Source: an uncultured Erythrobacter sp.
GTDB taxonomy: Bacteria; Pseudomonadota; Alphaproteobacteria; Sphingomonadales; Sphingomonadaceae
Assembly: GCF_958304185.1 (NCBI RefSeq)
Contig: NZ_OY284433.1
Span: 2,046,001 to 2,110,000 of the forward strand
Direction of reading: 5' to 3'
DNA length: 64,000 bases
In this document: positions 1,168 to 55,033 of the stretch, one piece after another
Position numbering within the stretch: position 1 is the first letter of the stretch
Layout: each line of letters starts with the position of its first letter
The notes under the pieces: model-generated
What the model was told of the DNA's origin: nothing
Databases searched by the model: none
What the model saw: the letters and a program-made list of their open reading frames with translations, nothing else
Position numbers and translations under genes: made by a program

Positions 1168-1237
1168 CGGCCCGCAGGGCCGCAAGGGCGACGGCCCGCC
1201 CGCAGCCGCTCGCCCGAAGGGCGAATCGCGGCGAGGA
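1168..1237 (-). repeat. Structured intergenic repeat, copy A (partial)
   Basis: Read on the minus strand this begins at the base after the cell-wall hydrolase stop codon. It shares TCCTCGC, GCTGCGGGCGGGC and GTCGCCCTTGCGG with the copies near 18.7 and 54.5 kb. The first hairpin of the full element is missing. The second (TCGCCC-TTC-GGGCGA), third (GGGC-CGTC-GCCC) and fourth (CGGCCC-TGC-GGGCCG, 1168-1182) are perfect stems. It occupies most of the space between the convergent xthA and hydrolase genes. Confidence 0.75.
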
Positions 1238-16923: not shown

Positions 16924-17700
16924 ATGTTCGTAATCGCGATTGCCAACCAGAAGGGCGGAGTGGGCAAGACCACCACCGCGATCAACATCGCCACGGCGAT
17001 GGCGGCGACCGGGTGGCGCACGCTGCTGATCGACCTCGATCCGCAGGGTAACGCCTCGACCGGGCTGGGTGTTCGGGCCGAATCGCGCGAAGTCTCGAGC
17101 TATGACCTGTTGGTGGACGAAGTGCCACTCGCCAGCGCGATCGTCCCCACCAGCATTCCGCGCCTCGATCTCATCCCGGCGACGGTTGACCTGTCCGGTG
17201 CCGAGATTGAGCTCGTTGCGGTTGAGGGGCGCACGCACCGTCTGGACAAGGCGCTGGCGAACCATGCGGCGCATGACATCTGCTTCATCGATTGCCCGCC
17301 GTCGCTGGGCCTGCTGACGCTCAACGCATTATGCGCGGCTGATACGCTGCTGGTGCCGCTGCAATGCGAGTTTTTCGCGCTGGAGGGGCTCAGTCAGCTG
17401 CTTCAGACCGTCGATCAGATTCAGCAGCGCTTCAATCCCGATCTCGGCATTATCGGCGTGGCGTTGACGATGTATGATCGGCGCAATCGCCTGACCGATC
17501 AGGTATCTGACGACGTGCGAGATTGCCTGGGCAAGCTGGTGTTCGAGACCGTAATCCCGCGCAATGTGCGCCTCTCCGAAGCGCCGAGCCACGGGCTTCC
17601 CGCGCTGATTTATGACCAGCATTGCACCGGCAGCCGCGCCTATATGGCGTTGGCGCGCGAATTGATCGGGCGATTTCCCGCAGAAAGACAAGCCGCATGA
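16924..17700 (+). CDS. parA: Chromosome partitioning ATPase ParA
   Basis: This 258-residue Walker-type ATPase has the deviant P-loop KGGVGKTTTAIN near its N-terminus, the LLIDLDPQGNASTGLG block and FIDCPPSLGLLTLNAL. ParA binds DNA non-specifically when ATP-bound and moves ParB-parS complexes after replication. Translation probably starts at the ATG at 16924; in-frame sequence before it is a shadow of rsmG. It is coupled to parB by an ATGA overlap. Confidence 0.96.
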   Translation: MFVIAIANQKGGVGKTTTAINIATAMAATGWRTLLIDLDPQGNASTGLGVRAESREVSSYDLLVDEVPLASAIVPTSIPRLDLIPATVDLSGAEIELVAVEGRTHRLDKALANHAAHDICFIDCPPSLGLLTLNALCAADTLLVPLQCEFFALEGLSQLLQTVDQIQQRFNPDLGIIGVALTMYDRRNRLTDQVSDDVRDCLGKLVFETVIPRNVRLSEAPSHGLPALIYDQHCTGSRAYMALARELIGRFPAERQAA

Positions 17701-18659
17701 GTGAAAATGTGACGCAACCCGCTGATTCGCCTGTGACTTCGCGCAGCGATGACAAGCCGCGGCGGTTGGGCCGGGGGCTGGGTGCCTTGCTCGGCGAGAC
17801 CCGGCGTGAGGAACCGCTGGTGCGGCGCGATGATGTGTCGGGGGATGCGCCGCAAGTGGTCGGCTCGCCGCTGCGCAATCTGGCGCTGGCCTCAATCAAG
17901 CCGCTGCCGGGCAACCCGCGCAAGTATTTCGATGAAGCCGCGCTGGAGGAACTCGCCGCGTCGATCGCCACCCGTGGCGTGATTCAGCCGATCATCGTTC
18001 GCCCGCACCCGAATGGTGAGGGTTATCAGCTCGTCGCGGGGGAGCGCCGCTGGCGCGCGGCGCAGAAGGCGCGGCTGCATGAGATCCCGGCGCTGGTGCG
18101 CAACCTCTCCGAGCGCGAGGTGATGGCGCTCGCGCTGATCGAGAATTTGCAGCGCGAGGACCTGAATCCGGTCGAGGAAGCGCGCGCCTATCACCGCCTC
18201 TCGGAAGACGAGGGCATGATCCAGGTCGACATCGCCAAGATGGTCGAGAAATCGCGCAGCCACGTCGCCAATATGATGCGGCTGATGTCGCTGCCCGAGC
18301 CGGTGCTCGGCTTGATCGAGCAGGGCCAGCTGTCGATGGGTCACGCCCGCGCGCTGATCGGGCGGGATGATGCGGTGCTGATCGCCGAGATCGCGGTGTC
18401 CGAGGGGCTATCGGTGCGCGATGTCGAAACGCTCACCCGCAAGCCGGCAAAGCGGGCCGATCGGCCTGCACCTGCGCCGTATCAACCGACTGAAAATGCT
18501 GATATTCTGGCTGTCCAGCAGCATCTTGAGGAGTTTCTTGGGCTAAGCGTCAAGATCAAGCCAGAGGCTGATCCGCGCAAGGGCACGATCACGATCCGCT
18601 ACACTACGCTGGATCAGCTCGATCTGGTGTGCCAGCGCCTGACCGGCGGCGAGTTCTGA
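17697..18659 (+). CDS. parB: Chromosome partitioning protein ParB
   Basis: The 320-residue protein has the N-terminal ParA-stimulating motif RRLGRGLGALLG, the CTPase/sulfiredoxin-like domain (NPRKYFDEAALEELA, IIVRP, LVAGERRWRAAQKA), the helix-turn-helix that reads parS (VDIAKMVEKSRSHVANMMRLMSLP) and a C-terminal dimerisation domain. It should load on the six nearby palindromes and slide as a CTP-gated clamp. A structured repeat begins 6 bases after its stop. Confidence 0.96.
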   Translation: MSENVTQPADSPVTSRSDDKPRRLGRGLGALLGETRREEPLVRRDDVSGDAPQVVGSPLRNLALASIKPLPGNPRKYFDEAALEELAASIATRGVIQPIIVRPHPNGEGYQLVAGERRWRAAQKARLHEIPALVRNLSEREVMALALIENLQREDLNPVEEARAYHRLSEDEGMIQVDIAKMVEKSRSHVANMMRLMSLPEPVLGLIEQGQLSMGHARALIGRDDAVLIAEIAVSEGLSVRDVETLTRKPAKRADRPAPAPYQPTENADILAVQQHLEEFLGLSVKIKPEADPRKGTITIRYTTLDQLDLVCQRLTGGEF

Positions 18660-18665
18660 CTTAAC

Positions 18666-18764
18666 GTTCCGCACGCCATCCGGCGTGCGAAATCCTCGCT
18701 CACACGTCCTTCGGGCGCGTCGCTGCGGGCGCGCAATCGCGCTTGCGGTCGCCTTTGGCGACCG
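18666..18764 (+). repeat. Structured intergenic repeat, copy B
   Basis: Full-length copy starting 6 bases past the parB stop, in parB orientation. Hairpins: CGCACGCC-ATCC-GGCGTGCG (18670-18689), an imperfect CGTCC-TTC-GGGCG, GCGCG-AAT-CGCGC, and CGGTCGCC-TTT-GGCGACCG (18746-18764). Linkers GAAATCCTCGCTCA and GTCGCTGCGGGCG are identical to copy C, while the first stem differs by paired changes. Confidence 0.8.
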
Positions 18765-18806: not shown

Positions 18807-18845
18807 AAAAAGCCCCGCAAGGTCGCCTGATCTTGCGGGGCTTTT
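18807..18845. terminator. Bidirectional intrinsic terminator between parB and the glycine-zipper gene
   Basis: AAAAAGCCCCGCAAG, a 10-base loop, then CTTGCGGGGCTTTT. The strong GC stem with A- and T-runs on the two sides can stop transcription arriving from either convergent gene. Confidence 0.9.
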
Positions 18846-54043: not shown

Positions 54044-54478
54044 ATGACCGAGGCCCTTGTCGCTTCCCTTCCGCTTGGCGCAGTGCAAGCTGCCGCCACC
54101 ACAGCCACGTCGCTGGGCAAGCCTGAAATGGCTACTGATGCCCTGCACCAGCTGGTGCTCGCGCAGCTTGACGATGATCAGGCGCAGGAGATCGTCACCA
54201 TCCCGCTTGAGGGCAAAAGCTCGATTGCCGATCACATGGTGATCGCCAGCGGCCGCTCGACCCGGCAAGTGGCGTCGATGGCGCAGAAGCTGGCCGAAGA
54301 GATCAAGAAAGCCGGTTTCGGCCATGCGCGCATCGAAGGCCTCCCGGCTGCCGACTGGGTGCTGATCGACGCGGGCGACGTGGTCGTCCACCTGTTCCGC
54401 CCCGAAGTGCGCACCTTCTACAACCTTGAACGCATGTGGTCGTTCGAGGGTGGTGAGCCGACGCAGGGAAGAGCGTGA
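54044..54478 (+). CDS. rsfS: Ribosomal silencing factor RsfS
   Basis: This ~144-residue protein contains the RsfS domain: LVLAQLDDDQAQEIVTIPLEGKSSIADHMVIASGRSTRQVASMAQKL, EGLPAADWVLIDAGDVVVHLFRPEVRTFYNLERMW. RsfS binds L14 and blocks 70S joining under starvation. Start is uncertain (ATG 54044; a TTG at 54038 has the better-placed TGGAGA). Repeat copy C begins 6 bases after its stop. Confidence 0.92.
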   Translation: MTEALVASLPLGAVQAAATTATSLGKPEMATDALHQLVLAQLDDDQAQEIVTIPLEGKSSIADHMVIASGRSTRQVASMAQKLAEEIKKAGFGHARIEGLPAADWVLIDAGDVVVHLFRPEVRTFYNLERMWSFEGGEPTQGRA

Positions 54479-54483
54479 TTTGA

Positions 54484-54581
54484 GTTCCGCAGCCCATCCG
54501 GGCTGCGAAATCCTCGCTCATGCGACCTGAAGGTCGCGTCGCTGCGGGCGGGCGGTCGCCCTTGCGGTCGCTACGCGGCCG
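54484..54581 (+). repeat. Structured intergenic repeat, copy C
   Basis: Full-length copy in rsfS orientation. Hairpins: CGCAGCCC-ATCC-GGGCTGCG (54488-54507), GCGACCT-GA-AGGTCGC, GGGCG-GT-CGCCC, and CGGTCGC-TAC-GCGGCCG (54565-54581). Compared with copy B the first stem has C-G pairs swapped to G-C at two positions with complementary change on the other arm. Confidence 0.8.
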
Positions 54582-54616: not shown

Positions 54617-55033
54617 TTGCACATCATCGCGCGTGGGAAGATTGGCCGCTCGCCTGAGGGTGAGCTGGTGGATCGCTATGCCAAGCGCATGACTTGGCCG
54701 TTCAAGCTCACCGAGTGGCCCGATACCGGCGCGGGCAAGGTGGCTGATGCGCTCACCCCTTGCCGCACCGTGTTGCTGGATGAGCGCGGCAAGGCGATGA
54801 CGTCGGAGGATTTCGCCCAACTTCTGGGGCGCTGGCGGGACGAGGGCGTGCGCGAGACGCGTTTCATGCTCGGCGCGGCGGATGGGCATTCTGACGCCGA
54901 ACGCGCCTCTGCCGACCTGCTACTCGCCTTTGGCCCGGCAACCTGGCCGCATATGCTCGCCCGGGCGATGCTGATCGAACAGCTCTACCGGGCCACCACG
55001 ATCCTTGCAGGGCATCCCTATCATCGGGCATGA
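54617..55033 (+). CDS. rlmH: 23S rRNA (pseudouridine-1915-N3)-methyltransferase RlmH
   Basis: The 138-residue SPOUT methyltransferase has HIIARGKIGRSPEGELVDRYAKRM, LLDERGKAMTSEDFAQLL, FMLGAADGHS and the C-terminal RAMLIEQLYRATTILAGHPYHR. It modifies helix 69 of 23S rRNA. No ATG or GTG lies in frame at the expected position; TTG at 54617 is the best start. The sequence directly upstream is the 3' part of repeat copy C and its flank. Confidence 0.92.
   Translation: MHIIARGKIGRSPEGELVDRYAKRMTWPFKLTEWPDTGAGKVADALTPCRTVLLDERGKAMTSEDFAQLLGRWRDEGVRETRFMLGAADGHSDAERASADLLLAFGPATWPHMLARAMLIEQLYRATTILAGHPYHRA

Follow-up and report, generated by a model that had tools for sequence, protein, structure and literature searches.

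The BOX elements of Streptococcus pneumoniae are composite modular repeats with variable module content, and the attC sites of integrons are gene-sense folded palindromes located right behind a stop codon, each consisting of one hairpin that ends in RYYYAAC and GTTRRRY and whose paired arms are variable. REPs and BIMEs are short multi-copy extragenic palindromes that occur as doublets, tandem or inverted arrays and mosaic composites (PMC2817692). The CGTC REPs of alphaproteobacteria are single hairpins of 8-9 bp with an A/T stem start, an unpaired CGTC, TGTC or CCTC tag and, in most cases, a CCA-like tail (PMC3733652). The repeat family analyzed here was encountered in a stretch of 64,000 nucleotides (C1:2046001-2110000 of the 3.29-Mb genome; hereafter the window), which contains three copies of it (Table 1).

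In the first-pass annotation, two of the copies span 18666-18764 and 54484-54581; both are full, and the linkers and arms described for them agree with the DNA letter for letter, the stated starts lying 6 nt (parB) and 5 nt (rsfS) behind the stop. The names parB and rsfS, also used in that annotation, and rlmH are presumptive. The third proposed copy (1168-1237, minus strand) is real and lies directly behind the stop of the hydrolase gene, but it is degenerate, lacks H1 and carries altered linkers (AATCCTCGCCGC; GCGGCTGCGGGCG, with 2 mismatches); since its linkers have changed, the first two linkers, said to be common to all three copies, are exactly shared by only two of them, those at parB and rsfS. 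The covariance model scored the parB, rsfS and degenerate copies at 96.5, 110.2 and 53.3 bits, respectively, the next-best match in the window reaching 17.8 bits. Little can be concluded from how often individual linkers occur in the window: GTCGCTGCGGGCG with up to 2 mismatches occurred 19 times vs 13.0 expected (reached by 7 of 100 shuffles), and GAAATCCTCGCTCA with up to 3 mismatches occurred 19 times vs 7.2.

Table 1. Positions of the three repeat copies, their parts and the adjoining genes in the window.
Feature	Position	Strand	Remark
parB, gene upstream of the 18666-18764 copy	17697..18659	+	
parB copy, leader	18660..18669	+	directly 3' of stop 18657-18659; T-rich leader family-wide
parB copy, H1, CGCACGCC-ATCC-GGCGTGCG	18670..18689	+	
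parB copy, linker TCCTCGCTCA	18693..18702	+	
parB copy, H2	18703..18719	+	
parB copy, linker TCGCTGCGGGC	18720..18730	+	
parB copy, H3, GCGC-AATC-GCGC	18731..18742	+	
parB copy, linker TTG	18743-18745	+	
parB copy, H4, CGGTCGCC-TTT-GGCGACCG	18746..18764	+	
rsfS, gene upstream of the 54484-54581 copy	54044..54478	+	
rsfS copy, H1, CGCAGCCC-ATCC-GGGCTGCG	54488..54507	+	
rsfS copy, linker TCCTCGCTCA	54511..54520	+	
rsfS copy, H2	54521..54538	+	
rsfS copy, linker TCGCTGCGGGC	54539..54549	+	
rsfS copy, H3, GGGC-GGTC-GCCC	54550..54561	+	
rsfS copy, H4	54565..54581	+	
rlmH, gene downstream of the rsfS copy	54617..55033	+	start predicted; may begin a few codons earlier
degenerate copy without H1	1168..1237	-	directly 3' of hydrolase stop (TAA 1240-1238); model match 1168-1253, 53.3 bits

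The full unit measures about 100-105 nt and reads, in gene sense, T-rich leader, H1, TCCTCG, H2, CTGCGGGCG, H3, TTG, H4; the leader comprises 11 nt (positions -11 to -1 relative to H1, as read in 86 type I copies after removal of redundancy), H3 has the form GNNC-loop-GNNC, and past H4 the 3' flank is conserved over about 2 nt only. Within a type the linkers hardly vary, and the first 8 letters of TCCTCGCTCA, i.e., TCCTCGCT, are invariant across 15 aligned copies of this genome. The types differ in the middle part of the unit, which is TCCTCGCTCA-hairpin-TCGCTGCGGGC in type I and, in type II, an outer helix (GGTGC/GCACC, GGCGC/GCGCC or GGGGC/GCCCC) enclosing a hairpin; type Ib is marked by TCCTCGCTA and type III by the linker TTGGCTT, and there is an H3 variant with the loop GCGT and changes in the adjoining linker. 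Several copies of this genome lack H1 or have it replaced. Entire arms recur as units, as exemplified by the H1 pairs CGCACGCC/GGCGTGCG in 19, CGCAGCCC/GGGCTGCG in 18 and CGCATCGC/GCGATGCG in 10 copies (kinship not removed). Tandem copies (L188, L067), an inverted neighbour (L217, by eye) and chimeras (L213, L219, L226), in which a type II unit is joined directly behind its first hairpin by a type I unit, were also found.

The covariance-model search proposed in the first-pass annotation was performed with a model built from 15 aligned copies, of 18 read in this genome, and returned 50 matches here at E<=1 and 46 at E<=0.01; this model misses some type II copies, and those behind rsfS in G028 and G002 were found by eye and by pattern. 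All 36 other genomes of the genus that were searched contain matches, from 3 to 52 each. In a sample of the host family, matches at E<=1e-9 were obtained in 57 of 298 genomes, which belong to 27 of 96 genera, with up to 13 candidates scored per genome, and in other families of the order 3 of 24 genomes contain one or two weak matches (E of 5e-9 to 5e-3). A pattern scan of named genomes yielded at least 118 stretches (at least 58 from Erythrobacter, 22 from Porphyrobacter, 11 from Altererythrobacter, 2 from Qipengyuania, 1 from Tsuneonella and 24 from genomes lacking a genus name, each figure being a minimum). The repeat family is centred on Erythrobacteraceae.

In each of the four hairpins, changes in one arm are accompanied by changes in the other. 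Among the 15 own copies of type I, 18 of 26 pairs showed changes on both sides, with 69 such cells against 24.4 in shuffles, so the earlier observation that arms differ while pairing is kept was borne out; standard pairs occupied 89.5% of the pair cells, as compared with 32-41% when the partners were slid. In type II (25 of the 32 copies found being aligned) 19 of 27 pairs had changed on both sides and 95.2% of the cells were paired. At the orthologous rpmH site, aligned for 15 of 19 type I sequences, 8 of 19 pairs had changed on both sides, with 29 double-change cells vs 8.6 in shuffles and 0-1 upon sliding; the number of pair types there did not exceed that of shuffles, 134 of 500 of which attained it. 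No covariation is shown by the outermost H2 pair (TG 59, CG 47, CA 39, TA 15). The covariation of the family is real.

If pairing were under selection on the transcribed strand, G.U would be expected to be tolerated far more than A.C. We therefore compared the two mismatches, scoring G.T and A.C alike when registers were chosen and excluding the outermost H2 pair. The 186 distinct arm pairs contained 1241 Watson-Crick pairs, 36 G.T, 39 A.C and 36 other combinations, whereas the acceptor and T stems of 43 of 45 tRNAs, mostly from this genome, gave G.T 30 and A.C 1 (Fisher p 5e-7). Counted per copy, A.C even prevailed (91 vs 36 G.T), mainly owing to two recurrent positions, which is why distinct arm pairs were also counted. 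The ratio was 7 to 7 at the rsfS slot alone; at the rpmH slot it was G.T 9 to A.C 2, a hint that leaves room for RNA pairing mattering there. As G.T and A.C are about equally frequent, unlike in tRNA, the pairing looks made or renewed at the DNA level; most simply, palindromes would arise or be restored in perfect form as DNA, after which ordinary mutation erodes them. Consequently, the conclusion drawn in the first-pass annotation, from compensatory change to selection on a folded molecule, was not supported as regards RNA for the family as a whole, the covariation of which does not look like the signature of selection on gene-sense RNA.

For the analysis of placement, 106 of the 118 listed loci were usable, and 95 remained after removal of 9 that overlapped a predicted gene and 2 without a neighbour; gene neighbours came from a custom codon-usage caller rather than from annotation, and this caller missed rpmH. 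As a null, each copy was placed at random within its own intergenic gap with random orientation in 2000 trials. Of the 95 copies, 51 start within 15 nt behind a same-sense stop (null mean 14.9, maximum 25), so that the non-random placement claimed earlier stands, and in only 7 does the H4 side lie within 15 nt of an opposite-sense stop (null mean 15.0). The gene contexts were ++ 41, +- 31, -- 19 and -+ 4, the left neighbour being of the same sense in 72 of 95. In this genome, where 46 of the 50 matches were placed relative to genes, 2 copies overlap a predicted gene, 19 start within 20 nt of a called stop, one further copy starts 4 nt behind the rpmH stop, and two follow the 3' ends of tRNAs at distances of 10 and 11 nt. 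A sub-gathering match to the Rfam family RF01867 (CC2171, a Caulobacter sRNA family) was seen at L188:1320-1487 (+), own C2 ~112718-112885 (54.3 bits with a cut-off of 75, E 2.7e-9), and is followed by two tandem type II elements. In view of this pair and of the copies at tRNA ends, gene ends in general, and not stop codons as such, may be the address of the element. Of 80 copies with a same-sense gene close upstream, 43 form 17 groups that have this gene in common, giving 38 pairs, where about 1 would be expected by our own estimate for random choice among 3000 genes (kinship not removed).

Five sites were then compared across genomes, those behind rsfS (50 read of 59 genomes with the gene), rpmH (50 of 58), tolQ (30 of 58), parB (30 of 57) and grxD (30 of 58). 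Types I, Ib, II and III replace one another at the same site, each of the five sites is without an element in some genomes, and two of them, the rsfS-rlmH and rpmH-rnpA joints, are mostly occupied. The rsfS slot bears a same-sense element in 41 of 50 genomes, an inverted one in 3 and none in 6 according to labels given by eye, degenerate elements included; a strict automatic rule counted 28 of 50. On a tree of 29 genomes, in which 9 of 26 inner branches are well supported, the type labels at this slot require 12 changes vs 12.6 when shuffled (83 of 200 shuffles are as low), i.e., the type changes as if at random, and the well-supported branches by themselves already require the type II label to change at least 8 times; G028, the sister of this genome on the tree, has type II at the slot, while this genome has type I. 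In two adjoining 20-kb stretches taken from each of ten relatives, nine model matches were obtained in eight genomes, all at the rsfS slot; with the pattern search, L284 and L286 each yielded a further type II copy, some 6 kb away from rsfS. Behind rsfS in L209, CTTCGACAGGCTCAG / CATCCTGAGCCTGTCGAAGGATG sequences stand instead of the element.

The rpmH slot contains type I or III in 33 of 50 genomes (23 by the strict rule), with zero inverted core matches in the 50; several of the other sites keep the final hairpin or different hairpins (the latter in L373-L376 and L389; by eye), and four have none (L331, L372, L382, L383). At the remaining sites turnover is plain: the grxD site bears a complete or nearly complete element of type I, Ib or II in 9 of 30 genomes (by eye), the tolQ site a same-sense element in 3 of 30 and an inverted one in 2 of 30, and the parB site an element in only 2 of 30; inverted copies also occur at grxD, and degenerate relics at rpmH and grxD (by eye). 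At tolQ-tolR of this genome (L332) the element parts a stop and a start codon that, in most of the 30 genomes, share letters as TGATG or TAATG, and it is flanked by a candidate 5-bp repeat ATGGC (by eye). In L334, L338 and L347 this operon joint behind tolQ bears a palindromic repeat of another kind (GTTCGTGTCGAGCGAAGTCGAGACAC... and relatives).

We assume, with a probability of about one half, that the elements are REP/BIME-like composite palindromic DNA repeats, spread and overwritten by non-RAYT means, and that at two operon joints they have additionally been retained because they act as a structured spacer there. The copies would be spread and overwritten at the DNA level by non-RAYT machinery, possibly through new insertions (behind genes or into pre-existing copies), gene conversion of one copy by another and template switching inside hairpins. 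At the rsfS-rlmH and rpmH-rnpA joints the element would be kept as a structured intercistronic spacer that may shield the upstream message or separate it from the downstream cistron; any element type would suffice there, and the sequence would therefore be free to be swapped. The occupancy and orientation at the two joints suggest that such a spacer role is perhaps played, and a 3'-UTR role, which the first-pass annotation had considered, is possible at these two sites, where occupancy is high. The occupancy of the rsfS and rpmH sites, the turnover of types, the chimeras, the tandem and inverted neighbours, the near equality of G.T and A.C, the placement and the covariation speak for our reading. 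Against it stand the absence, among our findings, of any mobilizing enzyme and of an established target duplication, the six of 50 genomes without any rsfS element, the support of the tree in only 9 of 26 inner branches, and, at rpmH, both the excess of G.T over A.C and the pair-type count not above shuffles.

A more specific, slot-and-cassette form of this explanation is put forward tentatively, as something we hold possible at less than even odds. In it, the spacer behind certain housekeeping genes (rpmH, rsfS) would nearly always be kept, while its mobile occupant would be replaced so frequently that kinship no longer predicts the type; selection would act on the architecture alone (four hairpins and fixed linkers), and non-RAYT machinery reading hairpins and linkers would copy, overwrite and repair the palindromes as DNA.

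The main rival, which appears to us rather unlikely, is a purely selfish repeat favouring gene 3' ends and its own older copies, for which the rsfS and rpmH slots would be function-free insertion nests, as such insertion into older copies could also keep sites occupied. The nested chimeras and tandem copies, the relics at rpmH and grxD, the inverted copies at tolQ and grxD and the neutral-looking mismatch spectrum are in agreement with it. However, orientation in the slots is nearly fixed (41 to 3 at rsfS, 0 inverted in 50 at rpmH), as opposed to about 2 to 1 for copies in tandem gene contexts elsewhere (41 ++ to 19 --), and some rpmH sites without an intact element retain other hairpins, the four empty ones excepted.

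Distinctly less probable is a cis-acting RNA element, i.e., a 3'-UTR stabilizer or an intercistronic regulator with stems under RNA selection, despite the gene-sense placement directly behind stops, the nearly fixed linkers and the mismatch ratio at rpmH. Although, compared with shuffles, folding is more stable in the two full window copies (z -4.2 and -3.3) but not in the degenerate one (z -0.75), the opposite strands of the three copies fold about equally well (z -3.4, -2.9 and -1.5). Moreover, a family-wide preference for G.U of the kind found in tRNA is missing, antisense copies exist, and all five sites are empty in some genomes.

A transcription terminator or a Rho-related signal is very improbable. 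The position at gene 3' ends, two tRNA ends included, would suit it, but the elements stand between cistrons of likely operons with such downstream genes as rnpA and tolR, which we take to be important. A terminator role is not indicated, because a T-run behind H4 is missing (T fractions of 0.31, 0.56, 0.32 and 0.27 at positions 1-4 in 159 copies) and parB has a separate conserved terminator downstream; an intrinsic terminator was thus rejected. The latter structure, a bidirectional intrinsic terminator at 18807-18845 of the window (AAAAAGCCCCGCAAG...CTTGCGGGGCTTTT), has similar counterparts at the parB site of many of the 30 genomes, some of which lack the element.

A classical REP moved by RAYT, which would likewise be palindromic, extragenic, multi-copy, located behind genes and found with inverted and tandem neighbours, is largely refuted for this genome: the RAYT transposase search suggested earlier gave no PF01797 (Y1_Tnp) match here, with the E. 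coli and Caulobacter controls giving matches, 57 of 61 genomes of the genus gave none and only 4 were positive, and no GTAG/GTGG head was seen by eye beside the palindrome in the type I and type II alignment consensus. Six Y1_Tnp matches, some of them partial, occur on contigs 3, 5 and 10 of G001. A known RNA family was rejected on the basis of Rfam scans, which gave no gathering match in the window and, at E<=1 over three loci, none on the element, and a phage or plasmid origin was rejected for lack of matches in phage and plasmid collections with the rsfS copy as the query.

Compensatory change in hairpins is often taken as proof of functional RNA; here, strong covariation combined with strand-symmetric mismatches points to DNA-level copying, so that one simple statistic can be tried cleanly on this family as a means of distinguishing RNA selection from palindrome turnover. 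The occupied slots with their interchangeable occupants offer a tractable test of whether mobile palindromes are domesticated as intercistronic spacers, since related species already contain the natural swaps. For a REP-like family that lacks RAYT, the enzyme is still to be found.

BOX elements share the composite modular build, in an unrelated host. With attC the elements have in common a palindrome behind the stop, in gene sense, with arms that vary while pairing is kept; RYYYAAC/GTTRRRY core sites were not seen by eye in the type I and type II alignments. Like the CGTC REPs, as described in the consulted part of PMC3733652, the elements are palindromes of alphaproteobacteria which lack a transposase of their own and lie for the most part behind genes; unlike them, they have four hairpins and no unpaired CGTC tag before the stem, and their H1 mostly starts with C-G (in type I, 94 of 112 copies; in type II, 23 of 25), by which, judging from that description, this identity was rejected. 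No published description of this repeat family was recognized in literature searches, and, as far as these searches go, the combination of four unlike palindromes with nearly fixed linkers would represent a new variant of REP-like repeat. Against the REPs and BIMEs with RAYT (PMC2817692), the family is set apart by four different palindromes per unit, nearly fixed linkers, a length of about 105 nt and the lack of a GTAG head. What it shares with them are many copies of extragenic palindromes, here mainly downstream of genes, arranged in tandem and inverted mosaics, and among the three classes offered in the first-pass annotation for a structured repeat lying behind stops in gene orientation, the REP-like one fits best.
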